Below are positions 17,035 to 51,096 of a stretch of DNA of 64,000 nucleotides, one piece after another. Within the stretch, counting starts at the first letter, position 1. Every line of letters begins with the position of its first letter. Below the pieces are notes generated by a model that saw only the letters and a list, made by a program, of their open reading frames with translations, did not search any database and was not told the origin of the DNA. The stretch is from Mariniflexile litorale. Its GTDB lineage: Bacteria; Bacteroidota; Bacteroidia; Flavobacteriales; Flavobacteriaceae. The DNA lies in NCBI RefSeq assembly GCF_031128465.2, contig NZ_CP155618.1:753501-817500 (forward strand), in the 5' to 3' direction. The translations under genes were made by a program, and so were the position numbers.

Positions 17035-17037
17035 ATG

Positions 17038-23838: not shown

Positions 23839-23852
23839 CAGCTAGGTTTTAA

Positions 23853-24861: not shown

Positions 24862-24865
24862 GATT

Positions 24866-25270: not shown

Positions 25271-25308
25271 TAACAGAAGAAAGTAATTGCTAATTATTAA
25301 AATTTCAA

Positions 25309-25367
25309 AAATTCCCTTTTTATACTTCACCTAGCTGCAATGGGTGTGTATCTAAAAGGGAATTTTA
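25309..25367. terminator. Bidirectional terminator between Xre gene and integrase
   Basis: The arms aaaattccctttt (25309-25321) and aaaagggaatttt (25355-25367) pair perfectly over 13 bp, and an inner cacc...ggtg adds to the stem. T-runs are present on both strands. It serves the convergent genes ending at 25270 and 25405. Confidence 0.8.
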
Positions 25368-25404
25368 TTATCTATTTTATGAATTTTGATAAACTGATTG
25401 TGGC

Positions 25405-26637: not shown

Positions 26638-26830
26638 GATTTCATCGTTTTGTTAATAATGGTTTTATTACCAGATGAAAGTCAAATCACTTTAAAGATA
26701 CATTTAATATCACAACAAATTGCTCAATTTTAACAATTCGGTCAACACTTTTTTAAAATGGTGTTTGTTATACGATTTGTTGACCTTTTTAACAGTATTT
26801 TTTGTATTCTTATGATATTGATAAAAATGC

Positions 26831-26864
26831 AAAAACCTGTAAATCATACGATTAACAGGTTTTT
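26831..26864 (-). terminator. Att-associated hairpin (copy 2)
   Basis: The outer arms aaaaacctgt (26831-26840) and acaggttttt (26855-26864) pair over 10 bp, with further inner pairing (aatc/gatt). It sits 23 nt from the 14-bp core at 26888, the same design and spacing as at 10941-10976 and 50964-50997. Before island B inserted, it would have followed the tRNA-Pro 3' end and ended its transcript. Confidence 0.65.
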
Positions 26865-26887
26865 GATATTGATTGATATACAACTTT

Positions 26888-26901
26888 GTCGGGGTGGCAG
26901 G
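26888..26901. repeat. att core copy 2 (junction of islands A and B)
   Basis: gtcggggtggcagg is identical to the tRNA-Pro end at 51021-51034 and to copy 1 at 10999-11012. It marks the right end of island A and the left end of island B. The next ~275 bases up to the transglutaminase gene hold no supportable gene. Confidence 0.92.
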
Positions 26902-32545: not shown

Positions 32546-32679
32546 AATTCTTTTAAATAAACAGGGTTCTGTTCTTTTCAAATTAAACCTTCTAAAACAG
32601 GCATTTATTTTTACTATCCTGTCAATTTATTACACGCTTTACTTATTCCGTTTGAAAAGTGTTAAAACGATACCACATG

Positions 32680-35600: not shown

Positions 35601-35838
35601 ATGTGGAACTAATATCTTTAATGCCTTTTACAGTATTAAAAACACCTTCTAGTTTGGATGTTACCTCTTGCTCCATCACTTTAGCAGAAGCATCTTGCCA
35701 ACTAAAAGATACATGTATAGATGGTAATGTTTTTGAGGGTGCTAATTGAAGACTTAATAAAGGGATTAAGCTTGCTCCTATAATGGATAAACATATAAAA
35801 ACGGTAAGTATAGAAAAAGAAGAAAACTTAAAGTTCAT
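32680..35838 (-). CDS. RND-family efflux/transport permease without local partners
   Basis: The 1052-residue protein has the RND layout: one N-terminal membrane helix, a large periplasmic loop, six helices, a second loop and six helices. The TM4 region reads SFGIIIDNSIIMIDHI, and the N-terminal loop has the usual ASAKVMEQEVTSKLEG segment. No membrane-fusion or TolC gene is adjacent, unlike the second RND pump at 40267, so it may share the MFP/TolC at 38759-44470 or work alone. It lies between the lepB-like scar (36 nt upstream) and the intact lepB. Confidence 0.9.
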   Translation of the reverse strand: MNFKFSSFSILTVFICLSIIGASLIPLLSLQLAPSKTLPSIHVSFSWQDASAKVMEQEVTSKLEGVFNTVKGIKDISSTSYKGWGNIAIQFKKNSNMDALRFEIANLIRQSYPELPEGVSYPSLSLSAANENMVPILSYSIHANENPYYIKKYAETYISPQLSTLKGVNQVNIYGAVPFEWVIEYNTNTLLQLNMSVNDIQSAINVYLNEQELGSGMFRVNKEGYDHEIVLNLSYKPDTDINWAKIPIKKIGNRIVYLGNIATVTYKEANVTSYYRINGLNIINMTVYAEQGVNTIDLANSVKEKVDDLSKELDTGYSIKLTQDTTEFVVEELQKIQKRTLFSFLILLILILLINRSFKYLAILFLSIITNLLIAINFYYLFKVELQLYSFAGITISFGIIIDNSIIMIDHIRNKGNKKAFLAILAATLTTIGALMIIFLLEESQQADLFDFALVIAINIGVSLLVSLFYVPALLEKMNLSKKRVHFSRKRKRRIIRFTNLYSRLIFWMKKPRFKWAFILIFILGFGIPFQLLPKDIERDGFMANLYNKSIGAEWFANDLRPTLEKIIGGALRLFTEDVFENSYYSEPERTTLRVTGSMPDGCTIEQLNEAITKMESYLSQFDEIALFETRISSYRNSSISIYFKEDFEFSGFPYTLKSLLESKAISLGGLDWSVTGVGRGFSNALSTGYKQNRIVLEGYNYDKLYSYAEQLKQQLEASSNSRVREVEITSGGWQDNALYEYYLDFDANKLAFANVSQIQLYGYLKNQLHSGPLTSIIQNNELQDVKLVSDKYKKFNVWDLKNTPITIQNKQYKLNQLASIEKKKTGNTIEKQNQQYSLTVAYDFIGTAPLAQKVRERTIESFEPKLPLGYKVFEQKYSRWDKKDETQYYYLFIVIGIIFFICAILLESLKQPFAIISMIPISFIGVFLTFYLFDFNFDQGGYASFILLSGISVNSALYILNDFNNLRKDYPNRHLGTLYFKAFNYKITPVILTIVSTIVGLIPFVWSGQNEAFWFSFAVGSIGGLMFSLIGIFIYLPLFIVKSNQYRVESK

Positions 35839-35875: not shown

Positions 35876-36356
35876 CTAATTTACAGATTTTAACAGTCTA
35901 TTCCACTGAAATTCATCTTGGTAATTGGAATATAATACACATTGTACTTTACCAATAATATTTTCCTTTGGGACGAAGCCCCATATTCTAGAATCCATGG
36001 TACCTCCTCGATTATCGCCCATCATAAAATAATAATCATGCTTAAAAGTATAGTGGGTTGCTTTTTTATCATTAATATAATAAGCACCGTCTATCTCTTT
36101 AACGCTACTATTTTCTGAGCTATTAATAGCCTTTTCATAAATGGCCAGATTTTCATCATTTAGTACTATATGCATGCCTTTTTTGGGGACTATTATTGGC
36201 CCATATTGTCAAACGACCAATTATATAAAGGTCTAAAAAAGAGATTTTTTTTTTCATTTCTCCTTGTATTTCTTTAATAGCTGTAGAGGGAATTTTCACA
36301 TCTTTATTTATGAGTTTCTTAACCATAGTTATTTCCTTTTCCTCTTGTCCAGACAT
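35876..36356 (-). pseudogene. Scar: 3' end of a ligase/TPR gene fused to a truncated lepB
   Basis: Two broken genes are joined. From 36356 the minus strand encodes SGQEEKEITMVKKLINKDVK and then STAIKEIQGEMKK, which matches the C-terminal end of the ligase/TPR protein at 46874 (GQKEKAVKIAKVILGKEIKK then STAIKEIKQQMKN). Around 36240 it switches to the C-terminal third of a signal peptidase I (PLYNWSFDNMG, then after a one-base loss IIVPKKGMHIVLNDEN, and MMGDNRGGTMDSRIWGFVPKEN), which parallels the intact lepB. The catalytic Ser and Lys regions are absent. The result is a deletion junction between a former ligase/TPR gene and a former lepB. Confidence 0.85.
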
Positions 36357-36400: not shown

Positions 36401-37492
36401 CTAATCTTTATAGGTATAAATCATTAAAATTGCATTGTCTCCTGTTTTGATATTTTTAATCTTAACATTTTTCATTAAATCTTCCTCGTTAATCAATTGT
36501 TCTGCATTCATAAATCCAACGAGACCATCATTGAACCCCCAATTTGGGATAAATGGAATTTCATTAATATCGTTTTTTGGTATACCAACGTTATGTATGT
36601 TTTTGCTTGTGTCAATCCAATCAATGCGACGAACTTTATTGTGAAAATAATCTAAAACAATGTAGTTTTTATGAAAATAAAAGTTGTTTCGTACTAGAAA
36701 TTTAAAATCTGGACTTAGCATATCATAATTGTTTACATTATCATTTTCGGGTAAACCTTTACTGCCAAAATCTAATACATACTTATGTTTGAAAGTAAAT
36801 TCTTCATCATCTAATTCATAGATAGAACTTGAAAAATTCTGCGAAAAATAGGTTTTGGAATTATTTATTGCAAAATTATTTGAGAATCCATAGTTAAATT
36901 TGAATTTCTTTGAATTTGGTTCAGAAATCGGCAAAAGTTTGTTTTTTATTTTTAAATCTTTAGATGTTGCTATAAACTGACCGGATTCGTTTTCGAATTC
37001 TAAAATTTTGAAGATAAATCCTCCTTTGGTAATCCAAAAATCTGTCGCTGTAAAATCAATTTTTATGGAGTTAACATATACATCATTTTTAAAATGGAGG
37101 ATTTTTCCAGATATATCCATTATGTATAGATTGTTATTTTCAACATCAAAGTCACTTATTGAAATATATTCATCGGGACCACTCCCCATTGAAGATAATT
37201 TTTTTTCAAATTGACCATGACTATTAAAAACAAGAATTGAATTTCCAATATTATCAAAAATATAGATTCTATTATTGATGATTTTCAATTTTTTAATAGA
37301 ACCTATTATAGACTCTTTATTTGTTTCTAAAGGTAAAAACGTTATAGTTTTAAAGTATTTAGAGAGCATAATAAAATTGTTATGAGACTCATATGGTATT
37401 TCTAAAGTTGTTTGACTAATATCATTATTCGTCTTAGAGCAACTAAAAAAAATTAATATTAAAGAAATTGATAGTATTATTCGATATTTCAT
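36401..37492 (-). CDS. 6-bladed beta-propeller lipoprotein (copy 1)
   Basis: The 363-residue protein has a lipobox ending at Cys18 (LIFFSC) followed by repeats of the 6-bladed propeller type, for example LKIINNRIYIFDNIGNSILV and DFDVENNNLYIMDISGKILH. The conserved GSGPDEYISISDFDV segment is shared with copy 2 (KGPHEYISLTDFGID). Such propellers are regularly encoded next to NVEALA peptides in Bacteroidota; their role is unknown. It lies downstream of the peptide gene at 37926-38228, with a strong hairpin in between, and upstream of the ligase-lepB scar. It is probably exposed on the outer membrane. Confidence 0.88.
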   Translation of the reverse strand: MKYRIILSISLILIFFSCSKTNNDISQTTLEIPYESHNNFIMLSKYFKTITFLPLETNKESIIGSIKKLKIINNRIYIFDNIGNSILVFNSHGQFEKKLSSMGSGPDEYISISDFDVENNNLYIMDISGKILHFKNDVYVNSIKIDFTATDFWITKGGFIFKILEFENESGQFIATSKDLKIKNKLLPISEPNSKKFKFNYGFSNNFAINNSKTYFSQNFSSSIYELDDEEFTFKHKYVLDFGSKGLPENDNVNNYDMLSPDFKFLVRNNFYFHKNYIVLDYFHNKVRRIDWIDTSKNIHNVGIPKNDINEIPFIPNWGFNDGLVGFMNAEQLINEEDLMKNVKIKNIKTGDNAILMIYTYKD

Positions 37493-37925
37493 AATGTATT
37501 GTTTTTTAAGATTGTAATACTCTATTGTTTTATGTTTTAATTGAGATTTAAAAGTCTACCGAAGTTTTTATAAGATATTTGATTTTTATGACGTTTTAAG
37601 GAATACAACTCTTTAGGTGTAGTTAGTTTTTAATGCTTATTTTTCGTTAGTTTCAGAAATTTCGGCAAAAACAATTAACCATATATTATTTTTTATGTAC
37701 CACTTTATTTGAACACAATTATAGCCGTTTTTAGTAATTGCACCAGAAAGTTGAAATATAATTTGTCGCGTGAAATAACGTTTATGTCTATATCATTTTC
37801 ATTATTCACTATCTTAATTTAAGTCTTTTTAAATTAGCAAAAACACGAAAATCATACTTGCTATTTGATTTTTCGTGTTTTTTTGTAAATGAAAGGTGAT
37901 AAATTAATTTACTGCTTTTAGATGA
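37493..37925. other. Non-coding gap between peptide 1 and propeller 1
   Basis: The 433 bases carry no supportable gene. The part next to the peptide gene holds the strong hairpin at 37839-37885; the rest is AT-rich and should include the promoter of the propeller gene. Confidence 0.5.
37839..37885. terminator. Strong hairpin terminator after peptide gene 1
   Basis: The arms aaaaacacgaaaatca (37839-37854) and tgatttttcgtgttttt (37866-37882) pair with one bulged base, with A/T runs on each side, so it can end transcription on both strands. It follows the stop of the peptide gene (37926) by about 40 nt. Confidence 0.8.
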
Positions 37926-38228
37926 CTAACAACTGCAACTTGTGGCACTGCAACTGGCTACGCCAAGATTTGGGTCGGTGGTCGTAAATGGAGTACATGA
38001 AACATATGAACAGCACGGGTTGCCCTCTTTATTAAATTTCCAAAGCGTTTGTTTTATATATCTACTGTATGTTGTTGGAGGATTACTTTCACCTCCTTGT
38101 GCATTGGCAATAGTTATACTCATTAAATTAACTGAATTGATATCTTTACTATCTTTGACGTTAGTAGTAGCAAAAAACATCGCTACAGCAATCACTGCAA
38201 CACCTAAAATCCCTATTATTCTCTTCAT
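37926..38228 (-). CDS. NVEALA-like exported peptide precursor, Cys-rich (copy 1)
   Basis: The precursor has 100 residues: MKR, one hydrophobic helix (IIGILGVAVIAVAMFFA), a polar linker (KDSKDINSVN) and then LMSITIANAQGG, which corresponds to the L-N-VEALA region of NVEALA leaders and offers an A-x-A cleavage (ANA/QG) about 43 residues in. The predicted mature part has six cysteines (PCCSYVSC, then ASC, TSC, SC at the very end) and aromatic/proline residues, so it may be a disulfide-bonded peptide. A ligase/TPR gene relic lies upstream and a propeller gene downstream. The precise function (toxin, signal or structural peptide) is not known. Confidence 0.75.
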   Translation of the reverse strand: MKRIIGILGVAVIAVAMFFATTNVKDSKDINSVNLMSITIANAQGGESNPPTTYSRYIKQTLWKFNKEGNPCCSYVSCTPFTTTDPNLGVASCSATSCSC

Positions 38229-38528
38229 TTTTTATTAATTTTAAATTATTAAATAAATATTTATTTTTTTGTAAAAGTCCTTAAGGAAATACTACTTTTA
38301 CTAAATATTAAATAGCATATTTTTAACAACTATTTAGTCAATAAAAAATTAAAGACTTCCTCTGGGTTTTATGAGTGTCTATGTCATAGGCTTTTATTTT
38401 AGTTAAACAATTTGTGATTATATTTTTTAACATGGAAATGCTCAGAGGTTTTTTTAAAGTTAATTTATCCTATTATTTATTAATTACTTCAAAGAAAACA
38501 CATGACAAGGACAAATTCTGTCACTTTG
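38229..38528. other. Upstream region of peptide gene 1
   Basis: The 300 bases hold the promoter area of peptide gene 1, an 8-bp inverted repeat (gtaaaagt 38271-38278, acttttac 38294-38301), and a relic of the end of a ligase/TPR gene at 38384-38429. No intact gene. Confidence 0.5.
38384..38429 (-). pseudogene. Relic of the 3' end of a ligase/TPR gene
   Basis: On the minus strand the bases aaaaatataatcacaaa, then ttgtttaac, then aaaataaa-gcctatga parallel the last codons of the ligase/TPR gene (46874-48790), which read aaaaatataatcacaaa, ttgtttaac, aaaaataaagagccaatga, with a 6-base deletion. Nothing else of the gene remains. It shows that peptide gene 1 also once had a ligase/TPR gene upstream, as peptide gene 2 has today. 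Confidence 0.7.
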
Positions 38529-38729
38529 CTATTTTTTTAAAAGATATTTATTACTTTTTCTGCAATACATTATGGTTTTACCTTCATTTCTAAGATTTGA
38601 AATCATTCGCTTTATAGTTCTTACACTACATTCATAATCATTGGCTACTTTTTCTAGGTCACTCAATCTTTTATGTTCTATCAAATACAACAAATGATTT
38701 TCTTTTTCTTTTCTTTCAGAGTAGGTCAT
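38529..38729 (-). CDS. Small HTH protein (66 aa)
   Basis: The product is a single winged-helix/HTH domain of the HTH_11/DeoR type: LLYLIEHKRLSDLEKVANDY, then CSVRTIKRMISNLRNEG with a basic tail. It starts 29 nt after the TolC gene stop on the same strand and thus closes the peptide 2 operon, just before the region of peptide gene 1, which it might regulate. It is shorter than usual regulators and has no effector domain. Confidence 0.7.
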   Translation of the reverse strand: MTYSERKEKENHLLYLIEHKRLSDLEKVANDYECSVRTIKRMISNLRNEGKTIMYCRKSNKYLLKK

Positions 38730-38758
38730 ATCATAATTATATTTTAAAATTTTAAAGA

Positions 38759-40270
38759 TTAATCTTCTAGTATCTCATTAAAATCTTGTACCAAAGGGGT
38801 ATTTGTTATAAAATCATACAAGGTTAATTGCTGCACGTTATAATACAATGCCCAATAGCTTTGTAAGGCTTGTATATAATTTTCGTTGGCCTGTTGCCAA
38901 GCTTTACGAGTCGAGGTTAAGTTTAGGAAATCTACACTTCCCGATAAAAAACGCTTTACGGTTAAATTATAAGACTCTTTTGAAATCTCACTGGTTTTTA
39001 AGGCTCCTAATACCAGTTCTTGTTGTAGGTTAAAGTCTAAAACTTTTAATGTAATATCCTGTTTATAGGTGTCTTCGTTTTGTTGCAACTCAATATCTGC
39101 AACATCTCTATTCATTTTAGCCGTTTTTATGTTGCCTCTGCGCTCCCCCCAATCTAAAATGGGCACATTAAGTTGTATAGCAATCATTTGTTGGTCTAAA
39201 AACCTACCATAAGCATCTACAAATGTGTTCGCTTGTTGATTTAACCCGTAACTAGCGGTTAAAGACAGATCAAAACGATTGTCTTTAATGGCTTTATCTA
39301 AATCTCTTAAAGCTTCAATTTTCCTAAGCTTTAAATCGAGTATATCTGGATTGTTTTGATATGCAAGATCAATAGCCTTATTTAAATCTATTGTTAGTGT
39401 TGGTATTAATTCTGGTAGTTCTGGAATGGCGTGCTGTGGCAATTGATCTCTTAAAAACAGCTTCAATTCGGACTCTGCTTTTTGTAAATCTTGTAAATTT
39501 TGAGTTAAGTTTGTATTTGCATTATATACATCCAATTCTAAATTTAGAAGGTCGCTACGTTCTATAGCAATCAAATCGTAACGTTTTTTGCCAATATTGA
39601 ATAATTTTTCGGCAGAAACTTTATTTTCCTTGGCTATCTCAACCTTTTTACTCGCCAACGCCCATTGGAAAAACAAATCGACTGATTTTAAATTTATGGT
39701 TTGCAATTCATATAAAAAATCCTGTTTTGCCTTTTGAAATTCCAAGGGTGCTATTTCTTTTTGCCATTTGAAGCTATTGAATGCCATAATAGGCTGCACC
39801 AAACCAATTCTAACTGGTGTGGCATTATAACTTTCGGTTTGTAAATCGCCAATATTCTCTAGCCTGTTAAAACTGGAATTGACAAATAAGCGTGTGCCTG
39901 TTACCCCTATATTTTGACTTAAAGACAGGTTGGCATAACTATTTATGGTTTGTTGTTGCCTGAACACATCTATATTCTGTTCAGAATCATAACGCTCTAT
40001 CAAGGCTCTGTTAAACGTAAAGGGTCTGGTTTCAAAATCAATTTTAGGAAGTAAACTCGATTTGAATGATCTAAATTGCCAATAGTTCACACCATATTGT
40101 CGTTTCGCCTTAAAAACATCTAACGAGTTTTTACTGGCCAGTTCTAAAATATCCTGAAGAGTGATTTTTTGACTAATAGTTGATATGGTATTGCTTTGTT
40201 GTGCTATTATATTTGTGAAACTCAATAGAACACATAGTTGAATGGTTATCTGTTTTATTTTCATACTCAT
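38759..40270 (-). CDS. TolC-family outer-membrane efflux protein
   Basis: The 503-residue protein has a signal peptide (MSMKIKQITIQLCVLLSF, cleavage near NIIAQ) and the two repeated TolC units of long helices with short strands (LQDILELASKNSLDVFKAKR and LNKAIDLAYQNNPDILDLKL are the two helix starts). It forms the exit duct for the RND-MFP pair. Its start overlaps the RND stop (ATGA, 40267-40270), so it is translationally coupled to the pump. Confidence 0.92.
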   Translation of the reverse strand: MSMKIKQITIQLCVLLSFTNIIAQQSNTISTISQKITLQDILELASKNSLDVFKAKRQYGVNYWQFRSFKSSLLPKIDFETRPFTFNRALIERYDSEQNIDVFRQQQTINSYANLSLSQNIGVTGTRLFVNSSFNRLENIGDLQTESYNATPVRIGLVQPIMAFNSFKWQKEIAPLEFQKAKQDFLYELQTINLKSVDLFFQWALASKKVEIAKENKVSAEKLFNIGKKRYDLIAIERSDLLNLELDVYNANTNLTQNLQDLQKAESELKLFLRDQLPQHAIPELPELIPTLTIDLNKAIDLAYQNNPDILDLKLRKIEALRDLDKAIKDNRFDLSLTASYGLNQQANTFVDAYGRFLDQQMIAIQLNVPILDWGERRGNIKTAKMNRDVADIELQQNEDTYKQDITLKVLDFNLQQELVLGALKTSEISKESYNLTVKRFLSGSVDFLNLTSTRKAWQQANENYIQALQSYWALYYNVQQLTLYDFITNTPLVQDFNEILED

Positions 40271-43200
40271 GATTTATGTCTTTTAGCTAAATAATAGTAA
40301 CAAAGTGGTATAAAATACAGACTGACTATAGTTCCCAAGAGCATTCCTCCAATTAGCGCAATAGCTAAAGGCGCTTGTAATTCTGCCCCCAACCCATTTA
40401 AGAACAATAAAGGTACTAAGGCTAGAATGGTTGTTAAACTTGTCATCAATATTGGCTTTAAGCGTCTTTGTCCTGCTACCAATAAGGCTTTCATTAAAGA
40501 AAAACCTTGACGCTGCAATTGAATGATGGTATCCACTTTTAAAATAGAATCATTAATAACGATCCCACACATCACCACAATACCAATCATGGACATGAGG
40601 TTAATACTCATACCAAAAAGTTTTAAAAATAAGAAGGCACCTGCTAAATCTATAGGGACTTCCAACAATATAATTAGCGGCAACACAAAAGATTCAAATT
40701 GGGATGCTAGAATAAAATAGAGCAACACTAAAGAAATTAATAACACGACTTTAAGTTCTCCCATAAGCTGTTTATTTGAAAAATAACTTCCATAAAAATT
40801 GACATCATACCATGTATTATTACTCACAACGTCTTGCACATCATTAATGATAGGTTCTACCTGTGCATCTTCAACCTGAAACTCTAAAGGATAATATTCA
40901 CCTTCTGCACCTCCTGTAATACTTTTTAAGTCTTCAGCCTTTACGATTTTAATAAAGTTTTTGATTTGAAAAACAGCACTGTCTTTAGACTTCACCGTGG
41001 TTTCATTTAAAATAGCATCGAGATGATCCGCATGATTCCCTAATATAACAGGGACAAAATTTTGGTTATCGACAACAGATAAGATTTCACGTTCGCTAAA
41101 AGCACTTTTTAGAGTGCTAAACAATGTATTGGCGTTTACATTATAGGTCATTAATTTTTCTTGATCTGCAACCAATGTGATGTGTTCTTGCCATGCTATA
41201 GGTTTTAAATCCACTCCCTCTAAGCTTTCATGAATTTGATACCATACGTTCTTTAATTGCTTATTTTGCTGGCTTCCTAAGTTTTCTATATTCCTTAATC
41301 GAGCTACTAAAGGTGTTTCCTTATTTGAAAAAATTAAACTAAAAATATTGTCAACGGCTTTATATTGATATACTATTTTTGGATACTTATTTGTTAAGAT
41401 GGCATCCAATTGCGATTTTACACGTATTAATTCGTTTTCGGTATTCGTTTGCAAGTAAATAGTGGCTTCAGAGGTTTTGGCATTGGAATCTTTATCCAAC
41501 AAAAACTGTTGGGTTCCCACTAAAGCCGTTTGATTAACCAACCTATCTTTTATTGAATTTAACAAATCCAACACTCTGCGTTTGTTTTCTTCAACATTTA
41601 TAGGCTCATTCCAATCAATCTTAATTAATGTTTCATTACTTTTTAATGTTGGCATTTGGGTTGTAGGCAACAAACTAAACAATACGACTGTTAATGTTAA
41701 AAGTACTATAACAATAGCAAAAGACATCCGTTGCTTTTTCATGACCCACCTAAACCCTTTCTCATATAAAGCTGTATAATCTAAGGTGTTTGTTTTCGCT
41801 AAAAACTGACTTATTCTTCCAACTTTAGCATGCCTTTTTAAATGAAACAAACGGTATAAAACTGGCAATAATGTTATGGAAACCAATAATGATACAAATA
41901 AACCGATACTGATGGCCATAGCCTGATCGTAAAACAGAGCTCCACTAATACCACTTAAAAAAACCAAAGGCAAAAACACCGCACAGGTGGTTAAGGCTGA
42001 ACTGAGTAAAGGTTTTAAAACCTCGTTCGTGCCCACAATACAAGCTTTAGATAATTTAAAGCCTCTTTCCCTATATTGAGTAATATTGTCGATAACAATA
42101 ATGGAGTTATCTATCATTAATCCAATACCTAAAACCAATCCAGACAGCGAAATAATATTTATTGAGATGCCAAAAAGATGAAAAAACAATAAACAAATAA
42201 TAATGGAGGTTGGTATAGTAACACCTATAAGTAGAGGTGATATAACGTTTTTCAAGAACAAAAACATAATACCAAAAGCCAAAAGCATGCCCCATAATAA
42301 ACTTTGAAACAGATTATTGATGGCATAATCCAATAACTTCGTTTGATCTCTTGTAATAGAAAAATTAATATGCGGATAGTCATTTTTTAAGGCATTTATT
42401 AATGTATCAAGCGAGGTCTTTAAATCCCCCATCCTGGCATCACTCTGTTTTATAATCGCCATTGTGACCGCTTCATTTCCATCAGATAAAACTAAACCCG
42501 TTCTTTTTTGCGGATGCTCAATAACTTCAGCCAGTTCTTTTAACTGAAATACACGGTTATTCTGATTGATATAAATGGATTCAATATCTTTTATATTATT
42601 TAATGAAGTTCCTAAGCGTACATCGTATTGATACTGATTGTCCTTAATCAATAAGCTACCTATATCTAAATCGTTTCTCTTAATATGAGATTCTAAATCT
42701 TCTAAGGTGATGCCAAGGGCATCCAATTTGTTTCGGTTGGGTATGATAAGAATTTCTGGTGACACCAAACCACTAACATCTACCATGGCGACTTCATTAA
42801 TCTGCTCTATGCGCTTGCGAATAACCTGATTTGTAAAACGGTTAAAATCCACAAATTTCTGTGATACTGGATATAAAACGTTTTTCTGGTAAGTAGAACT
42901 TTTTAGGTCTTTAGTCGGCACTTCTTTAATAGTCATGCTTAAATAAAATACAGGAATATCCGTCGCACTGGCTTTAATAACTTTTGGGCGTTTAACAGCC
43001 TTTGGGAGACCTCCCATAATTCTATCTATTTTTTCATTGACTTCAATAAATGCATAGTCAATATTGCCACCATGTGTAAAACTTAACTTAATAACACCTA
43101 TTTCGTTACTTGTTTCGCTATTGATATCTTTTAAATGGCTCACCTGCATTAAGCTAGCTCGCAATGGTTTTACAACAGCATCTTCCAATTGTCTTGCCGA

Positions 43201-43356
43201 CATATTATCTGCCTGTACCTGTACCGTAATCTCTGGGATGTCAATATCAGGCATTAAAGAAACAGGAATGAACCCAAAGGCATAAGCCCCCAAAATAAGG
43301 ATCCCCAATGCCATCATTAAAACGGCTATGGGTTTATGTATTAAAAATTTAACCAT
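40267..43356 (-). CDS. RND-family transport permease (pump of the MFP-RND-TolC set)
   Basis: The 1029-residue protein has the HAE-1/AcrB-type plan with 12 membrane helices and two periplasmic loops; N-terminal MVKFLIHKPIAVLMMALGIL and ADNMSARQLEDAVVKPL are typical, and the TM4 segment is LGIGLMIDNSIIVIDNI. It sits between the MFP gene (14 nt) and TolC (4-nt overlap), so the complete tripartite pump is encoded together with the peptide, propeller and CxxC protein genes upstream. Substrate is unknown; the position suggests that the peptide or its modified product is exported through it. Confidence 0.95.
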   Translation of the reverse strand: MVKFLIHKPIAVLMMALGILILGAYAFGFIPVSLMPDIDIPEITVQVQADNMSARQLEDAVVKPLRASLMQVSHLKDINSETSNEIGVIKLSFTHGGNIDYAFIEVNEKIDRIMGGLPKAVKRPKVIKASATDIPVFYLSMTIKEVPTKDLKSSTYQKNVLYPVSQKFVDFNRFTNQVIRKRIEQINEVAMVDVSGLVSPEILIIPNRNKLDALGITLEDLESHIKRNDLDIGSLLIKDNQYQYDVRLGTSLNNIKDIESIYINQNNRVFQLKELAEVIEHPQKRTGLVLSDGNEAVTMAIIKQSDARMGDLKTSLDTLINALKNDYPHINFSITRDQTKLLDYAINNLFQSLLWGMLLAFGIMFLFLKNVISPLLIGVTIPTSIIICLLFFHLFGISINIISLSGLVLGIGLMIDNSIIVIDNITQYRERGFKLSKACIVGTNEVLKPLLSSALTTCAVFLPLVFLSGISGALFYDQAMAISIGLFVSLLVSITLLPVLYRLFHLKRHAKVGRISQFLAKTNTLDYTALYEKGFRWVMKKQRMSFAIVIVLLTLTVVLFSLLPTTQMPTLKSNETLIKIDWNEPINVEENKRRVLDLLNSIKDRLVNQTALVGTQQFLLDKDSNAKTSEATIYLQTNTENELIRVKSQLDAILTNKYPKIVYQYKAVDNIFSLIFSNKETPLVARLRNIENLGSQQNKQLKNVWYQIHESLEGVDLKPIAWQEHITLVADQEKLMTYNVNANTLFSTLKSAFSEREILSVVDNQNFVPVILGNHADHLDAILNETTVKSKDSAVFQIKNFIKIVKAEDLKSITGGAEGEYYPLEFQVEDAQVEPIINDVQDVVSNNTWYDVNFYGSYFSNKQLMGELKVVLLISLVLLYFILASQFESFVLPLIILLEVPIDLAGAFLFLKLFGMSINLMSMIGIVVMCGIVINDSILKVDTIIQLQRQGFSLMKALLVAGQRRLKPILMTSLTTILALVPLLFLNGLGAELQAPLAIALIGGMLLGTIVSLYFIPLCYYYLAKRHKS

Positions 43357-43369
43357 AATGTCTTAATGA

Positions 43370-44470
43370 CTAATTATTAGATTTAATTAGAACCTCGCTA
43401 TCGTGAGCTAAATTTAAATTGTTGGAAACAATAATGGTATCACCAGGTTTTAACGACGCACTACTTTTATCAGGGTTTGGTATGACGGCATAGGCTTTAC
43501 TGTTTTCTAGCGTAGTAAGAATATATGTCCAATAAGCTTTTCCGTTTTTGACCATAAATAACACCTCTTGATTATCTCTTAAAACAACAGCCGGTTTAGG
43601 CACCACAAATTGATCTGGAATATCTTTTTTAATAAACACCTTTACGTTCATGCCCTCTAATAATTGACCATCATTTTTTACTCGGGCTTTTATTAAAATA
43701 GTGCCGTCTTTTTCAACCTGTGGGTTTATGGTGGTTATGTCGCCTTCGTAAGATTTACTTGTGGCAAAAGGGGCTATGGTTATGCTGTCTTTTGCTTTTA
43801 TATCTTTAAGTTCAGACTCAATTACATAAAATTCCACTTCAAAAACAGCATCGTTTATTAACGTTATAAACTCTTTACCCGAATTAATTTGGTCGTATTT
43901 CTTGCTATTAATATTGGCCACCTTACCACTAAAAGGTGCTGTGAGTTTGGTTGATTGCAAATCGAACTTTGCATTTTCTAATTGGTGCAATGCATTCTTA
44001 TAGCCAGATTTAATCGCCATCATATCATACTCTTCTTTAGGTATAGTTTCTTTGTTATTGGGGTTAAAACCACGACGTATCTGTAGATCTTTAAATTCTA
44101 AAGTAGCCTGCTTTAAATCTATTTCTGCTTTACTTACTTTTTGCTGATAAGTAAAAGCATCCAAACTAGCCAAGAGCTGTCCCTTTTTAACATAATCGCC
44201 GTCTTTAACGTGAATGTTGTTGAGTTTTTCGCTGACATTAAATTTTAGGGTGCTTTTTTCTAAAGCTACCAGTCGTCCATTACTGACTAACTCTTTTTTA
44301 AAAATACTTTTATCTAAAACCATGATATCTACCTCGTTTTTATCTGGGAGATATTGTTTTTTTGTAATGTCTTTATCTTCGTTTTTCTTGGTCTTATTGC
44401 AAGATTGAAGAAGGGATACCATAAAAATTATAAATAAAAGTTTTTTTAAAATAATTTTTGCTGTTATCAT
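43370..44470 (-). CDS. Membrane-fusion (HlyD/AcrA-type) lipoprotein
   Basis: The 366-residue adaptor protein has a lipobox (SLLQSC, Cys24), lipoyl-like halves (ALEKSTLKFNVSEKLNNIHV, KDGDYVKKGQLLASLD and LTAPFSGKVANINSK), a helical hairpin of about 45 residues, and the C-terminal barrel domains. It connects the RND pump to TolC. It is encoded 30 nt after the thioredoxin-like gene and 14 nt before the pump. Confidence 0.92.
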   Translation of the reverse strand: MITAKIILKKLLFIIFMVSLLQSCNKTKKNEDKDITKKQYLPDKNEVDIMVLDKSIFKKELVSNGRLVALEKSTLKFNVSEKLNNIHVKDGDYVKKGQLLASLDAFTYQQKVSKAEIDLKQATLEFKDLQIRRGFNPNNKETIPKEEYDMMAIKSGYKNALHQLENAKFDLQSTKLTAPFSGKVANINSKKYDQINSGKEFITLINDAVFEVEFYVIESELKDIKAKDSITIAPFATSKSYEGDITTINPQVEKDGTILIKARVKNDGQLLEGMNVKVFIKKDIPDQFVVPKPAVVLRDNQEVLFMVKNGKAYWTYILTTLENSKAYAVIPNPDKSSASLKPGDTIIVSNNLNLAHDSEVLIKSNN

Positions 44471-44500
44471 GGATTATTAATTTTAGTATTTATCTATTTT

Positions 44501-45154
44501 TCAATCAAGTTTAATGTTTTTATGAAAGTGATTTTTTAAACCAAATTTTAAATAATATTCTGAAAGCTTTGGTTTATCTTTATTTGGTATATAAAAGTTA
44601 TTCATTTTCAGATTTGAATCAATATGAAAATAATAGGGTATTTCATAATTTTCTAGTGGTATTTTTAGCCCTTTATTTGACGTTAAAAAAAATTTAACAT
44701 TAGTTGTCAATCCTTTTTTCTTTAACTCTTCATAAAAAACACTCATATCCCGTCTGTTTATATGGTAAGCTATAAGACATACTTCATTTGAAAAAGAAGA
44801 ATTATTATTTATTAAAATATTTAATTCAGCATCAATACACTCTTTACAGTTTAAAATGGAATATCGTAAAACAATATTGTCTTGTTTAAAAACTTCTTTT
44901 GCTAAAATAGTATCTCCTTTTAAGGTTATTAATTTAACATCCTTATCTAAAACCAAATCTTCACTTTCTTTGGAAATAAGAAAGTTATTCTCATCTAATT
45001 TCATTGTATGAATAAGATCGGTATTTTTGATAATTTGATTTTTCAATAATTCTTTTGTTTTAACAAAAGCTCCATTACTTAGATTTAACTTATAAATTAA
45101 TAAGCCATTAAAAACTATTAATATTAAAATGACTAAAATTTTTATGTTTTTCAT
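44501..45154 (-). CDS. Membrane-anchored thioredoxin-like protein with CxxC
   Basis: The 217-residue protein starts with one membrane helix (ILVILILIVFNGLLIY) and has a thioredoxin-like domain outside: VLRYSILNCKECIDAELNIL with Cys103 and Cys106, and EIPYYFHID where thioredoxins carry the cis-proline loop. It would act on thiols in the periplasm, which fits the cysteines of the peptide precursors. Its ATG overlaps the propeller stop by one base (TAATG). TlpA-like proteins have been noted in NVEALA loci; the disulfide role here is inference. Confidence 0.75.
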   Translation of the reverse strand: MKNIKILVILILIVFNGLLIYKLNLSNGAFVKTKELLKNQIIKNTDLIHTMKLDENNFLISKESEDLVLDKDVKLITLKGDTILAKEVFKQDNIVLRYSILNCKECIDAELNILINNNSSFSNEVCLIAYHINRRDMSVFYEELKKKGLTTNVKFFLTSNKGLKIPLENYEIPYYFHIDSNLKMNNFYIPNKDKPKLSEYYLKFGLKNHFHKNIKLD

Positions 45155-46317
45155 TAATTATTAATATTTTTGAATTGATATACAATCAATAAAGGGTTAT
45201 CATCTATATTTATATCTTCAGCTATCTTTTTAATGTTATCTGGTATTTCACTCCATTTTTTAGGGTACTTGCTTTTGCAAGTATTCATCTCATTTTTAAA
45301 TGATTCCGCAGGGAATTTTGAGATAAGCTTATTATCATTACCATCGTGAGCAAAATAATTTATAAAAGGAAGCCCTTTATGATAAAAAGAATTAATTACT
45401 TCAGACTTTTTTGTCTTTTTAGAATATATAACAAGTTTATTTAAAAGATATGAAAAAGTAATATAGTCCTTAGTTTCCCTGAAATTTGATATTCCCCAAC
45501 CATAATTATTCTCATTAGCATAATTATAAACATCAAAAATATTTACTTTTTGTTCATAAATTTTATTGGGCATTTTATTCCTCCCAAAATCAAGAGAGTA
45601 TTTAGCTGTAAACCCATTTTTATTGTATTCATAAATAATATCTGAATAAGGTAAACAAATTTTAATATTTCTATCTTTTATAATACATGGTGTTTCTAAT
45701 GCATATTCTGAATAAAATTCATCTATCTCATTACTTTCTAAAAAACTATTTTTTTTATTTGTACTTAAATCATATTCTTGTAGCATATATTCCCTATTAG
45801 TCTCATTGTTTAGCAAAACCATTTTTCCATTCATTAATGCAATATTAGAATATAATTTATCAAGCTTTTTCTCTTCAATAAATTCCCCTAATAGATCATA
45901 AACAATAACTTTGTATGGTTTATCCGCATAAACTACAATTTGTTTGTTTACCTCATCAATTCCAAAATCAGTCAAACTAATATATTCATGAGGCCCTTTA
46001 CCTATATTTTTAATTTTATAAAGAAACTTACCTTTATCACTAAAAATAAAAACACTGTTTAACTTTTTGTCGAGAATATAAATTCTATTATTGTAGAAAC
46101 TTATCCTATCTATTTTTGAAATTATAGAAAATTCATTTGTTTCTAACTGTATCAAATATGAAGAAGAAAAGTATTCATCAAAGTTTCCTTCAACAGCTTC
46201 TTCGTTAAGATCTATTTTAATTGATTTAATATTATTGTTTACCAGTGGATTTACGTCATTAGATTCTTTACAAGAAATAAGGAAAAAAACAAGTATCACA
46301 TAAAAGTTATTCTTCAT
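45154..46317 (-). CDS. 6-bladed beta-propeller lipoprotein (copy 2)
   Basis: The 387-residue protein has a lipobox (FFLISC, Cys16) and propeller blades like copy 1 (ISFYNNRIYILDKKLNSVFI, GKGPHEYISLTDFGIDEVNK, SLDFGRNKMPNKIYE). It follows the peptide 2 gene by 59 nt, with an inverted repeat just before its start codon, and overlaps the thioredoxin-like gene by one base. The peptide-propeller order is the same as in copy 1, so the two are duplicated modules that have diverged. Its ligand is unknown. Confidence 0.88.
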   Translation of the reverse strand: MKNNFYVILVFFLISCKESNDVNPLVNNNIKSIKIDLNEEAVEGNFDEYFSSSYLIQLETNEFSIISKIDRISFYNNRIYILDKKLNSVFIFSDKGKFLYKIKNIGKGPHEYISLTDFGIDEVNKQIVVYADKPYKVIVYDLLGEFIEEKKLDKLYSNIALMNGKMVLLNNETNREYMLQEYDLSTNKKNSFLESNEIDEFYSEYALETPCIIKDRNIKICLPYSDIIYEYNKNGFTAKYSLDFGRNKMPNKIYEQKVNIFDVYNYANENNYGWGISNFRETKDYITFSYLLNKLVIYSKKTKKSEVINSFYHKGLPFINYFAHDGNDNKLISKFPAESFKNEMNTCKSKYPKKWSEIPDNIKKIAEDINIDDNPLLIVYQFKNINN

Positions 46318-46330
46318 AATTTTTTTTTAA

Positions 46331-46364
46331 TGCTTCCATGAAATCATAATATTACATGGAAGCA
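46331..46364. promoter_or_regulatory. Inverted repeat at the peptide 2 / propeller 2 junction
   Basis: tgcttccatg (46331-46340) and catggaagca (46355-46364) are a perfect 10-bp stem with a 14-nt loop. In the direction of transcription it lies between the peptide stop and the propeller start (13 nt away), and what follows is an A-run rather than a T-run, so it is unlikely to be an intrinsic terminator. It may stabilise the peptide part of the message or dampen translation of the propeller gene. Confidence 0.45.
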
Positions 46365-46376
46365 AGTTAATTTTAA

Positions 46377-46736
46377 TTAAGTAGACTGACAGCCTGGTAT
46401 TGAACTTGTTACCCAACTACCCCAAGCCCCTGTTCCAGAAGTTCCAGGTGTACAAAGTGTATTTCCAGTACCAGGACAACTTACTTCTGCCGCCGCCCTA
46501 GTTCTAGTGCGCTTCTTACAATCTCCTATATTTTCTTCTTCTGATTGCGTCACTATTGTTGTAACTTTTTTCTCAGCGAAATTTCCATTTGACTCTGCAT
46601 TTGCAGTAGAAATCAAATTAATAGACAAGAGATCATTAGCACCCTCTGTATTAGACTTATCTTTTAACATATCTATATTAAGGCCTATAATAAAAACCAT
46701 TATTAATAACCCTAGAGCATTTAATGTTTTTTTCAT
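46377..46736 (-). CDS. NVEALA-like exported peptide precursor (copy 2)
   Basis: The precursor has 119 residues: MKK, hydrophobic helix (ALGLLIMVFIIGLNI), polar linker (DKSNTEGAND), then LLSINLISTANAESNG, the counterpart of the NVEALA region with a potential ANA/ES cleavage near residue 48. The mature part is basic in the middle (KKRTRTRAAAEV), rich in Gly/Thr/Ser at the end, and has four cysteines (GDCKK, VSCPG, LCTPG, PGCQ). Leader layout is shared with copy 1 (S-I-x-(L)-I-x-x-A-N-A) while the mature parts are unlike. It is the second gene after the ligase/TPR gene, followed by propeller, CxxC protein and the export pump. Confidence 0.75.
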   Translation of the reverse strand: MKKTLNALGLLIMVFIIGLNIDMLKDKSNTEGANDLLSINLISTANAESNGNFAEKKVTTIVTQSEEENIGDCKKRTRTRAAAEVSCPGTGNTLCTPGTSGTGAWGSWVTSSIPGCQST

Positions 46737-46873
46737 TTTTTTTTATTTATTACGTTTATTTTATTATTTAACTTTAAGTCTGTCAGGCACACTACTCTTT
46801 AAATGTGTTAATACTTAACTTTATCAAGTATTAATAATCTAAATTTTTAGATTTCCTTTTATTCTTTAATTCT

Positions 46874-48790
46874 CTATTTCATTGGCTCTTTATTTTTGTT
46901 AAACAATTCATTTTTTGTGATTATATTTTTCATTTGTTGTTTTATTTCCTTTATTGCTGTTGATGATTTTTTTATCTCTTTGCCTAAAATTACTTTAGCT
47001 ATTTTAACTGCTTTTTCCTTTTGCCCAATTTCATCATATAATTTTGCTAACAAATACAATGGGTAAAACCTAGTAGGTATCATATTAGAAGCATGTATAT
47101 AGGCTATTTCTGATTCCTTATATTGTTTATTATTTTTATAAGCATCGCCTAAAGCCGTTTCTATAATAGTAGTATTTAAATGTATCTTAGCTCGTTCTAA
47201 AATTTGTATCGCTTTTTCATCTTGTTTATAAATGGATAAGGTTTTGCCGTAATTCATTAAAAACTCACCATTGTCTTTCAATTCAGGAAAAGCTTCCTCG
47301 TATGCTTCTATTGCAGTTTCATAATCTCCATATTGATAACTGTTTAAAGCGAATTGCCAATTTTTAAAGCTTTCACTTAAACTATTTATATACTTAAAGC
47401 TAAAAACTGTTATTATTAAAATACAACCAACCACTAAAGTTTTTAGAGAAATTATTATAGGAACATTTACTTTAAAATTTTGAAATAGCTTTGTTTTATT
47501 TTGGTCCAACTTAGCAAGACCTGATAATAAAATAACCATGATAAGTTTAATAGGTAGAATTTCCATGGGATAAGAAAAGAAGGCAAATACACCAATAGTT
47601 AGTAAGCTTATTTTTATTATAATACCTAACTCATTCCTTTCTTTTACATCTGCCGTTTTGATTTTGATAATAAAAAACAAAACAAACAGTAATATTATGA
47701 AACCAAATACGCCTTGTTCGGTTATAAATTGAATGAATTCATTGAAGGCATAATAAGTATTATCAGCTACTAAAGTCTCTTTAGTTTCTCCATGTTGTGA
47801 AAAATAATTAGCTTGATGGTTCATATAGTGAGCCTTAAAACGATCAAGGCCTACACCACAAACAGGATTTTCTTTTATTATTTCGGTAGAGACTTTCCAA
47901 ATAAATAATCGACCATCCGAAGATCCTTGTTTAAAAAGATAAATACCTAATAGGCTTACTCCAATTATCAATATACAACCTGTGATTAAAATTGATTTTG
48001 TTAAATTGGTATATTTATTAAAAAGCCGTTTTATAACTCTATAGCGATATTCTAACAATAGGCAACTACTTATTATTACAGCTAGCCATGATCCTCTAGA
48101 TTGCGATGCTGGTATAACCAATAAAATACTTACCACGCCAAACATGGGTATATAGTTAAAAATGTATTGGAACATCTTTTTTAAAAATACAGAGCCACTT
48201 TTTGATCGCATTTGCTCTATTATGTTTGCGTTAAACAAATACATTCCCAAAGTTATTGGCCATACAGCCGAAAGAAAGCCAGCATAAGGCCCTGGGTTAA
48301 AAAAACTACCTGTCATTCTAAACCCAGAATGATTAGATGGATAGTATTCCAGCAATTGTAAATTACCATATATTGCTTGGATAATTCCTGAAACGACAAC
48401 CATCAATAGCAAACAAACATAATTTTTATTGGAAAGATTTCTTAAAACGATATACAAAACACCTAACCCCACTAATTCCATAAATCGGATTGAGAAACTT
48501 AAATTAGTTTGAATGACATATCTATTTAATGTAATAAATGTTAAAAAAATAAAAAGTACAATATCCAATTTAGAAGGTGAAAATGAAATAGCTTTAGTGA
48601 ATACTATCTTGAGACCATATAAACATAGCAACACTAAACAACTATATTGAAAGCAAATAAACTTGCTTGTAACTGTGGGTTGTACATATCCAGATAGATT
48701 AATTTGGGGTAATACCAAGAAAAGCAAAGACACAAAAACTACAATAGCGAATTTTGGCAAACTTGTTAAAACATTTGTACTTTCCTTCAT
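46874..48790 (-). CDS. O-antigen ligase-like (Wzy_C) membrane protein with C-terminal TPRs
   Basis: The 638-residue protein has about ten to twelve membrane segments in residues 1-460, a Wzy_C/O-antigen-ligase-type central stretch (PASQSRGSWLAVIISSCLLL, ENPVCGVGLDRFKAHYMNHQ), and TPR units at about 475-610 (YGDYETAIEAYEEAFPELKD, EIGQKEKAVKIAKVILG). Such proteins transfer sugar chains to acceptors; the family includes enzymes that glycosylate proteins. It lies at the head of the peptide 2 cassette, and two broken copies of its 3' end lie near peptide 1. A role in modifying the peptides is an inference; it could also serve cell-surface polysaccharide. Confidence 0.82.
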   Translation of the reverse strand: MKESTNVLTSLPKFAIVVFVSLLFLVLPQINLSGYVQPTVTSKFICFQYSCLVLLCLYGLKIVFTKAISFSPSKLDIVLFIFLTFITLNRYVIQTNLSFSIRFMELVGLGVLYIVLRNLSNKNYVCLLLMVVVSGIIQAIYGNLQLLEYYPSNHSGFRMTGSFFNPGPYAGFLSAVWPITLGMYLFNANIIEQMRSKSGSVFLKKMFQYIFNYIPMFGVVSILLVIPASQSRGSWLAVIISSCLLLEYRYRVIKRLFNKYTNLTKSILITGCILIIGVSLLGIYLFKQGSSDGRLFIWKVSTEIIKENPVCGVGLDRFKAHYMNHQANYFSQHGETKETLVADNTYYAFNEFIQFITEQGVFGFIILLFVLFFIIKIKTADVKERNELGIIIKISLLTIGVFAFFSYPMEILPIKLIMVILLSGLAKLDQNKTKLFQNFKVNVPIIISLKTLVVGCILIITVFSFKYINSLSESFKNWQFALNSYQYGDYETAIEAYEEAFPELKDNGEFLMNYGKTLSIYKQDEKAIQILERAKIHLNTTIIETALGDAYKNNKQYKESEIAYIHASNMIPTRFYPLYLLAKLYDEIGQKEKAVKIAKVILGKEIKKSSTAIKEIKQQMKNIITKNELFNKNKEPMK

Positions 48791-49562: not shown

Positions 49563-50817
49563 CTAAACAACACAACTATTGTTTTGATTCGCTGAAATTT
49601 TTGTAACTTCTCTTTTTTTGATCCGTTCCTGTAGATTGTTTATATCCTCGCTTATCTTGGTTTCCACTACCCTAGCATAGATTTGGGTCGTCGATAACTT
49701 TGTATGTCCCAAAAGCTTTGACACTGTTTCTATGGGTACGCCGTTAGACAGTAAAACAGTGGTTGCAAAGGCATGTCTGGCAATGTGGAAAGTCAGGTTA
49801 TTCCTTATTCCACAAACATCGGCTATATCTCCTTTAAATACGAATTCAACTTTTGGTTTGAGATTGTTGGGAATAAGTTTTGTTTTACTGTAGTGCTTGG
49901 ATTTGATTTATAAGTTTCTATAATCTTCAAGGCTTTGGTCAGTAATGGTATCTTTACTGGAACGCTCGTTTTTTCCCTTTGTGAATAGATCCATTGCTTT
50001 CCGTCTATACCTATACATAGGTTATCGGTCGTTAAATTCATGACATCGCCATAGGATAAGCCTGTATAACAACTGAACACGAACAGGTTCTTTATCAATC
50101 CCAGCCTTGGAATTGTAAATGACTTGTTCTCTATGCTTTGCAGTTCTTCCAAGGTCAGGAAGCCCCTTTCCTTCTTTTCGTATTTCGCCTCAAACTTCAT
50201 GAATGGATCCTTGTCCAACCATTCCATTTTAAAGGCAAGGCTCACCATTTTCCTTAATCTTTCAATATGTTTCATAACGGTATTGTTTCCATTTTTTCCT
50301 GGTGCCTCAAAAAACGCTCAAAGTCAATGATGAACTTATATCCTAGTTCCGAGAGGTACATGTCCGTTGTCCTGTGCTTTTGCTTTAGAAAGAGAAGGAT
50401 ATACTTGTGTGTCGTGAAATAGTTCTTTTGTGTGCCCCATCGCAGGGTGTCCTTCATGTGGGTATTGTGGTACTCTATGATATCCGAAAGTGAATGGCGG
50501 TCTTCTTCATTACCAAGGAAATGTGCCTTAATGATGTTCGAGCTTACCTGCTTGTTACCGCTTTGCAGTTTTTGATAGCATTCAAATAGCTTGGCATTGA
50601 CCTGCTCTATAAAATTGTTGAACTGTTTGTTTTCCTCGCTTAATCCTTTTAGCCTGTTCTTGTTGGTATCCCAATCTGAAATGGTTACTTTTCTTTTAAG
50701 GGAAAGTTCCGCGCGTTTGCCATTTACGGTGATTCGAGCATAGAGGGGTGCCTGTCTGTTTTTGGTATTGGCTTGCCTTAGCCAAAACAGGATACTGAAG
50801 GTGTTTGAATGTGTCAT
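49563..50817 (-). pseudogene. Tyrosine integrase of island B, inactivated by two frameshifts
   Basis: Read through in three frames, this gives a full-length relative of the island A integrase: arm-binding start (MTHSNTFSILFWLRQANTKN), core domain, CYTGLSYGDVMNL, then FHIARHAFATTV, LLGHTKL and TTQIYARV with the catalytic Tyr, ending with TAG at 49563. The first break (near 50285) is a one-base loss in an A-run where FERFLRHQEK should continue with NGNNTVMKH. The second (near 49833) is a two-base TA duplication after SYLKEI, before ADVCGIRNN. The Arg I position is Ser (TGLSY), as in island A's enzyme. A homopolymer sequencing error could explain the first break, but hardly both. Confidence 0.9.
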
Positions 50818-50963
50818 AATCTTTCATTTTTAAATTAAACATTAAAAACAAAAGTCAAATCAAGTCATTCGGTTACCTTTTTTATGGGTTTCCACGTGTG
50901 GTAACCGAATTGGTCACTTTTTTTACCAAACCAATACAAATTAAATGTGACCCTTTAAAATGC

Positions 50964-50997
50964 AAAAACTTGATAATCATTCGATTACCAAGTTTTT
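50964..50997 (-). terminator. Terminator of tRNA-Pro (att hairpin, copy 3)
   Basis: The outer arms are aaaaacttg (50964-50972) and caagttttt (50989-50997); the inner arms taatc and gatta surround a 4-nt loop. It lies 23 nt past the tRNA-Pro 3' end, reading on the tRNA strand with a run of T at its end. It matches the hairpins next to the other two core copies in plan and distance but not in arm sequence. Confidence 0.75.
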
Positions 50998-51020
50998 ATT
51001 ACTATTTGATTTCTTAAAAA

Positions 51021-51034
51021 GTCGGGGTGGCAGG
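51021..51034. repeat. att core copy 3 (right end of island B, inside tRNA-Pro)
   Basis: gtcggggtggcagg covers the last 13 bases of tRNA-Pro (acceptor and part of the T arm) plus one base outside. It is the intact chromosomal half-site from which copies 1 and 2 derive. Confidence 0.92.
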
Positions 51035-51096
51035 ATTCGAACCTGCGACCTCCTGCTCCCAAAGCAGGCGCGATAACCGGGCTACGCTACACCCCG
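51022..51096 (-). tRNA. tRNA-Pro (anticodon TGG)
   Basis: On the minus strand the acceptor stem CGGGGTG pairs with CACCCCG, the anticodon arm is CCTGC-TTTGGGA-GCAGG with TGG at 51059-51061, and the T arm contains GGTTCGAATCC. CCA is not encoded. The gene is intact; island B is inserted at its 3' end. Confidence 0.97.

Follow-up and report, generated by a model that had tools for sequence, protein, structure and literature searches.

Peptides of the NVEALA type and the 6-bladed propeller lipoproteins have, to our knowledge, no known job. Other peptides leave the cell by known routes: double-glycine bacteriocins are exported by peptidase-containing ATP-binding cassette (ABC) transporters, and in E. 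coli MacAB-TolC carries a disulfide-bonded peptide out of the periplasm. Here we describe a peptide cassette carried on an island of Mariniflexile litorale, in a stretch of 64,000 nucleotides (contig NZ_CP155618.1, positions 753,501 to 817,500, referred to as the window) of its 4.52-Mb genome. In our judgement the island probably, though by no means surely, carries the genes of a pathway dedicated to maturing and exporting ribosomal disulfide-rich peptides.

Like the double-glycine bacteriocins, the cassette combines a conserved leader, a variable core, a dedicated protease and an exporter. In contrast to them, there is no GG site in the leaders and no ABC transporter was recognised among the open reading frames (ORFs) of the island, which has instead a signal-peptidase-type site and a pump of the resistance-nodulation-division (RND) type. 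Assignment to this bacteriocin class was rejected, as neither a GG leader nor a peptidase ABC exporter was found in the leaders and island ORFs. The proposed route shares Sec export, periplasmic disulfides, a tripartite pump and TolC with the MacAB-TolC system. However, MacB is an ABC protein whereas the cassette permease is an RND protein, and the cassette also brings a signal peptidase, a redox protein and propellers of its own. Since the defining features that were tested for known kinds of peptide export are absent, we regard the system as a new kind, most of whose single proteins have known folds.

No account of such a system was found in the open-access literature (subscription papers and preprints lay outside the search); an earlier note on this DNA had held the full pathway to be, as far as its author knew, undescribed. 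Among the papers listed by the search, none contained the word NVEALA, DUF5128, DUF4934 or DUF4221. In one paper, a table of Bacteroides thetaiotaomicron genes includes an O-antigen ligase (BT0662), a hypothetical protein (BT0663), a 6-bladed propeller (BT0664), lepB (BT0667) and an RND adaptor (BT0669), there solely for iron-dependent expression and with p values apparently of 0.11 to 0.44 (PMC10434189). Judged by these gene names, BT0662-BT0669 resembles the cassette and is its likely counterpart in a genetically tractable gut Bacteroides.

The cassette and the proposed pathway

The cassette fills a 24-kb element (26.9-51.0 kb) at a tRNA-Pro gene. The parts named in the earlier note (two precursors, propellers, a CxxC protein, MFP-RND-TolC and a ligase protein with tetratricopeptide repeats, TPRs) are all present, all on the minus strand. 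The signal peptidase, which had been placed within 36401-48790, lies elsewhere: the intact gene is at 31370-32581, outside that interval, and the nearer copy at 35876-36175, also outside, is a fragment. The cassette reaches beyond the interval to 27178, which adds a second RND permease and a transglutaminase-like lipoprotein. PepA and PepB, listed below, are both among the sequences from which the leader hidden Markov model (HMM) was built.

46874..48790 (-), LigTPR, Wzy_C (O-antigen ligase-like) membrane protein with C-terminal TPRs, 638 aa (PF04932 E 1.4e-17; TPR models)
46377..46736 (-), PepB precursor, 119 aa, with hydrophobic helix, ISTANA followed by E, and a 72-aa core with 4 Cys (leader HMM E 1.5e-18, a self-match)
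45154..46317 (-), PropB, 6-bladed propeller lipoprotein, 387 aa (DUF5128, PF17170, E 3.8e-38)
44501..45154 (-), CxxC217, membrane-anchored CKEC protein with predicted thioredoxin fold (model and Foldseek)
43370..44470 (-), MFP, periplasmic adaptor of the RND pump (TIGR01730, 154.9 bits, cut-off 94.9)
40267..43356 (-), RND1, RND permease, 1029 aa (NCBIfam scan and searches of family genomes)
38759..40270 (-), TolC-family outer-membrane channel (TIGR01844 E 3.7e-24, under the curated cut-off)
38529..38729 (-), HTH66, small helix-turn-helix (HTH) protein, likely regulator (HTH matches under cut-off)
37926..38228 (-), PepA precursor, 100 aa, with ITIANA followed by Q and a 57-aa core with 6 Cys (leader HMM E 3.3e-23, a self-match)
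36401..37492 (-), PropA, 6-bladed propeller lipoprotein, 363 aa (DUF5128, PF17170, E 1.9e-36)
32680..35838 (-), RND2, second RND permease, 1052 aa (NCBIfam scan)
31370..32581 (-), LepB403, intact cassette signal peptidase I (Peptidase_S26, PF10502, E 2.4e-33; TIGR02227 over cut-off)
27178..29250 (-), TG690, transglutaminase-like lipoprotein (Cys/His conservation; weak Foldseek matches)

In the proposed pathway, PepA and PepB would enter the inner membrane by Sec via their N-terminal helix, and LepB403 would cut the leader about 20 residues past the helix, between A-x-A and a following E or Q. The CxxC protein with its predicted thioredoxin fold may then form or shuffle disulfides in the even-Cys core, while the propeller lipoprotein, encoded directly downstream of each peptide, may bind or escort it. 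MFP-RND1-TolC, possibly together with RND2, would move the peptide from the periplasm to the outside. LigTPR and TG690 may attach a sugar or cross-link, and release of the peptide may serve competition or signalling. Directly observed are the genes and their linkage, the fact that they recur in two orders, the ends of the island and the catalytic residues of the peptidase; from these we infer each biochemical step (cleavage, disulfides, export, sugar or cross-link) and the purpose. If the pathway operates in this way, RND pumps serve as peptide exporters. The cassette gives NVEALA-type peptides and propellers a testable job, and such cassettes are a source of varied Cys-rich peptides for screening.

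A broader reading, which we put forward tentatively, is that of an undescribed Bacteroidota secretion pathway in which RND machinery, possibly with two permeases (RND1/RND2), would be dedicated to ribosomal peptides with disulfide bonds. A conserved chassis (LigTPR, TG690, MFP, RND1, TolC, HTH and RND2) would accept exchangeable modules (peptide, propeller, redox protein and signal peptidase); this chassis could travel on islands and, going by gene names, would be present in a gut Bacteroides as well.

Precursor peptides and recurrence of the gene set

The gene set recurs within the family. Genomes G044, G395, G436, G560 and G534 each have LigTPR, MFP, RND1, TolC, LepB, RND2, TG690, a peptide, a lipoprotein in the propeller place and a CxxC protein; TG690 was not seen in the cassette of G343. 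LigTPR, whose nearest named relatives are in Confluentibacter sediminis, Flavivirga algicola and an uncultured Flavobacteriaceae bacterium, has relatives of about 41-83% identity in other cassettes. HTH66 relatives adjoin TolC in six loci (56-86% identity), and RND2 relatives are found in the cassettes L069, L071, L074, L081, L082, L091, L092, L125 and L128. In two genomes of the same genus (G134 and G509), those cassette proteins that were used as queries had no match.

PepA and PepB are indeed, as the earlier note claimed, two short precursors with a hydrophobic helix and a late S-I-x-x-I-x-x-A-N-A-like segment. The leaders are alike: M-K-K, a helix, about 20 residues and D-L-x-x-L-x-x-x-N-x-A-x-A. 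The cores, of 30 to 120 residues, have little mutual similarity, and five differing cores occur within a single genome, G344. Our set comprises 24 cassette peptides (HMM matches with additions read from neighbourhoods) sharing 23 lipoproteins, the two of the window included. E or Q directly follows A-x-A in all 24 aligned peptides, counting a corrected site in L081 and with some choice involved, since the site finder permitted nine residues at that position. Cys number is even in 22 of the 24 cores. A conserved leader with an even-Cys variable core is, as read from sequence, the pattern of secreted disulfide peptides, and with the predicted thioredoxin fold of the CxxC protein these counts fit the disulfide bonding suggested before. 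A signal peptidase site 20 residues past the helix is unusual, and possession by the cassette of its own signal peptidase would follow from this.

Since the first relatives had been found via LigTPR, 397 genomes of the family were searched, as a neighbour-independent test, with a leader-only HMM built from seven leaders. This search gave 19 matches at E<=3.6e-5 that reach the A-x-A region, four of them in the model and 15 new; in 15/15 of the new ones the next same-strand gene encodes a lipoprotein of 344-425 aa. Weaker matches (E 1e-4 to 0.05) mostly span just the first 20-40 positions; among these the neighbourhoods in G565, G075 and G476 were examined, together with the G560 and G131 cassettes. 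A third G560 peptide (E 0.002) and a G131 peptide (E 0.03) sit inside cassettes. The G565 match is a further cassette, in which the peptide (L176:9779-10009, with a 4-Cys tail) is followed by a 354-aa lipoprotein and lies 3.4 kb from a LigTPR relative of 42% identity. The G075 and G476 matches were rejected as cassettes on examination of their neighbourhoods.

The earlier note had called the peptides NVEALA-like. This stands for the setting and gene set, which they have in common with real NVEALA peptides; the window peptides themselves lie under the Pfam cut-off. At E<=1e-3 Pfam NVEALA (PF14055) has no match in the M. litorale genome, individual Pfam scans of PepA and PepB gave no NVEALA match at E<=5, and direct membership of the two peptides was thus ruled out. 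Three of the 24 cassette peptides match NVEALA at E<=1 (best 0.013, under the Pfam cut-off), and none of the 24 scanned reaches the gathering score. In alignments the cassette peptides nevertheless have the NVEALA leader layout of helix, spacer, Asn and A-x-A, and they occur in the NVEALA-type setting with a propeller lipoprotein. The two groups are alike in length, N-terminal helix, spacer, Asn then A-x-A, Cys-bearing variable tail and adjacent propeller; they differ in motif, which is N-x-A-N-A followed by E in the cassette and N-V-E-A-L-A in NVEALA.

In another order, NVEALA matches at E<=1e-3 occur in 8/149 genomes, six above the cut-off. Genome G620 of that order has six such matches, five of them within one 40-kb stretch that also contains RND1, RND2, MFP, TolC, LigTPR, TG690, LepB, a CxxC protein and a DUF1573 protein; a propeller, identified by Pfam, comes next after all five peptides of the stretch. 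RND1 relatives (E<=1e-150) occur in 22/149 genomes of the order and cover six of the eight NVEALA genomes (Fisher p 1.2e-4). As for the two NVEALA genomes without an RND1 relative, one is a 61%-complete genome and in the other the match lies inside a 568-codon frame. In eight RND1 loci of this order (about 6 kb or less), LepB was found in two, a propeller-like gene in one and neither in five. In a first phylum sample, two sub-threshold NVEALA matches (2/198 genomes) were discarded: one lies inside a 507-aa protein and the other is a lipoprotein-like ORF of 136 aa, for which the 3 kb examined contained no cassette gene.

Comparison of the cassette leader with the NVEALA profile by hhalign gave a probability of 88% (E 2.9e-6). 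In a rerun the score was 26.6 (81%), with two control N-termini at 13.9 and 14.7 and 100 full column shuffles at 12.4 or below; 3/100 shuffles of the C-terminal half reach 26.6, and common descent with NVEALA is therefore unproven by sequence alone. It is on the common gene set that the link of the cassette to NVEALA rests, and the island represents one local version of a cassette that is more widespread. The cassette genes occur together in other genera and in another order. The earlier note had named their failure to do so as a refutation of its idea, and this refutation did not come about. The recurrence also refutes the explanation that accessory genes with no relation to one another came together by chance in a tRNA island. 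That explanation could appeal to the second, defence-bearing island which adjoins this one at tRNA-Pro, and we give it practically no credence.

Pump, accessory proteins and rival explanations

Within the family, relatives of RND1 at E<=1e-300 occur in 8/249 genomes, and all eight adjoin small Cys-rich secreted ORFs. G131 and G411 are among them and have another peptide type, with a leader HMM E of 0.03 in G131 and no match in G411; the lipoproteins beside these peptides gave no Pfam match. A different peptide type (CKCNxxGxCKxxG...) lies beside the same pump at L091:12357-13153 and L092:17158-18008, where the neighbouring lipoproteins gave no Pfam propeller match. RND1 is among the best conserved parts, at 66-97% identity in the leader-HMM and named cassettes. 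Neither permease reaches the curated NCBIfam cut-offs of named drug and metal pumps (495/1250 bits for RND1 and 300/1250 for RND2).

This conservation, together with the single N-terminal helix of the small proteins and the usual transport of small molecules by RND pumps, could be taken to mean that the small proteins sit in the membrane to sense for, or regulate, a pump exporting metals, drugs or lipids, with the propellers and CxxC proteins as envelope-stress partners. Against this, some peptide units (L070, L072, G018 and G514) have the pump at a distance or not at all, and the cores vary widely in one genome, as in G344 with its five; the even Cys counts and the E or Q after A-x-A in 24 aligned peptides also speak against it. 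We consider such a role improbable.

Propeller-type Pfam families match 21 of the 23 cassette lipoproteins: 13 match DUF5128, five DUF4221 and three only TolB_like. The lipoproteins of L070 and L071 gave no Pfam family match. The lipobox Cys is invariant in 23/23 aligned cassette lipoproteins. In five DUF4221-type pairs the cores are alike and account for all of the seven most similar core pairs, as would be expected if neighbours descend together. DUF5128 propellers occur in 41/247 genomes of a phylum sample. PropA is 93% identical to a protein of G534 (L082:13052-14143), yet for RND1 the identity to that cassette is just 66%; this perhaps reflects a recent module transfer.

In 18/18 aligned proteins encoded after the lipoprotein a CxxC is present, in a set selected for CxxC and with some loci ending before that gene. 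A predicted model of CxxC217 (pLDDT 84) matched TlpA, ResA and peroxiredoxins in Foldseek (best E 5e-8, TM about 0.4-0.6); a Pfam scan of the protein gave no thioredoxin match, and two of the 18 aligned proteins match Pfam Redoxin. By its CxxC and predicted fold, CxxC217 would class as a thioredoxin-like oxidoreductase. LepB403 is a signal peptidase I by its S26 domain and Ser/Lys dyad. Ser99 and Lys180 are kept in all 14 aligned sequences, which comprise 13 cassette-type loci and the other LepB that this genome encodes away from the cassette.

LigTPR has a Wzy_C domain (PF04932), as do protein O-oligosaccharyltransferases of the PglL/TfpO type. In TG690, Cys255 and His288 are invariant in eight sequences; scans against Pfam and NCBIfam gave no match to the transglutaminase fold. 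These two proteins are central to another alternative, in which the matured peptides would be fixed at the cell surface: LigTPR and TG690 would join them to glycan or protein, the propellers would present them and the RND pump would move another part, for example a lipid-linked precursor. Ligase-like and transglutaminase-like genes do recur in full cassettes, a TG690 relative lies within about 20 kb of 10/11 LigTPR places (one of these relatives being a fragment), and the invariant lipobox Cys of the propellers fits such an arrangement. But G018 and G514 have no TG690, no acceptor or sugar-synthesis gene was recognised among the island ORFs, and LigTPR/TG690 pairs occur also where no such peptide is recognised. 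Surface fixing appears unlikely to us, if less so than a sensor role. In L025-L031, LigTPR and TG690 relatives are close together in other settings; judged by eye, their neighbours are Gly- or Cys-rich proteins, with pilin-like genes nearby in one case.

Several observations weigh against a dedicated export pathway. The chief one against an obligatory pump concerns G018 and G514. Both combine LigTPR, a peptide, a propeller, a CxxC protein and LepB but show, in the stretches examined, no RND, MFP or TolC; the G018 genome has no RND1 relative at E<=1e-300, and neither genome has a TG690 match at E<=1e-15. This speaks against a strict form of the idea put forward earlier, with the pump always present: either the cassette can do without the pump, or a different exporter takes its part. 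Peptide cargo is unusual for RND pumps, and in the other order 16/22 RND1 genomes have no NVEALA match. The LigTPR and TG690 relatives paired where no cassette peptide is recognised may mark the two as a more general pair, and the TG690 model (pLDDT 74) gave top Foldseek matches that are mainly transglutaminases, weak at TM about 0.15.

The accessory genes are likewise not always in place. A DUF1573 protein takes the place of the CxxC gene in L070 and L074, the PepA module of the window has no adjacent CxxC gene, and the G565 peptide has EAN instead of A-x-A. Co-evolution of peptide and propeller was considered and rejected (core against propeller similarity, Mantel r -0.09, p 0.86). A small Cys-rich ORF lies beside the propeller in 11/28 DUF5128 loci sampled, some of these doubtful as called by a crude script; propellers thus work also without such peptides.

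Island boundaries and neighbouring genes

The limits of the island are given by a 78-bp direct repeat of 76% identity (26824-26901 and 50957-51034), whose final 14 bp lie within the tRNA-Pro end, with further copies at 26888-26901 and 10999-11012. The boundary features and the remnants within the island are as follows.

51021..51096 (-), tRNA-Pro, attachment gene of the island (ARAGORN)
49563..50817 (-), putative integrase, broken into three ORF pieces, adjoining tRNA-Pro (read from the ORFs)
36156..36356 (-), remnant like the LigTPR C-terminus (by eye, IPSTAIKEIQGEMKKK against SSTAIKEIKQQMKN in LigTPR)
35876..36175 (-), remnant of a second LepB, C-terminal part only (PF10502 profile positions 85-167 only)
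26888..26901 (strand not assigned), far attachment-site copy, end of the 78-bp direct repeat

An intact 417-aa relative of the integrase is found upstream of LigTPR in L003. The LepB remnant is a 75% direct repeat with part of LepB403 and is without the catalytic Ser99 and Lys180; a Pfam scan of the LigTPR-like remnant gave no match. The neighbouring position of the two remnants after PropA (35876-36356) suggests a decayed second unit copy. The island was also considered as a defence system and rejected, as 0/10 island proteins match PADLOC at E<=1e-3, in a scan that left RND1, RND2, TolC and the DUF6055 protein outside. This last protein (29354-31264, E 2.8e-91) is encoded within the island. 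G+C drops to 26% at 44001-48000, the part with PropB, PepB and the CxxC gene, the other 4-kb windows being at 29-35%.

A second element (11.0-26.9 kb) stands in tandem with the cassette island. Located at the same tRNA-Pro site (10999-26901), it encodes a PrimPol-helicase protein (11241-14204), an Old/Gabija-like ATPase (15250-17034), a SIR2-HerA pair (19349-20545 and 17482-19359) and an integrase-like ORF (25405-26637).

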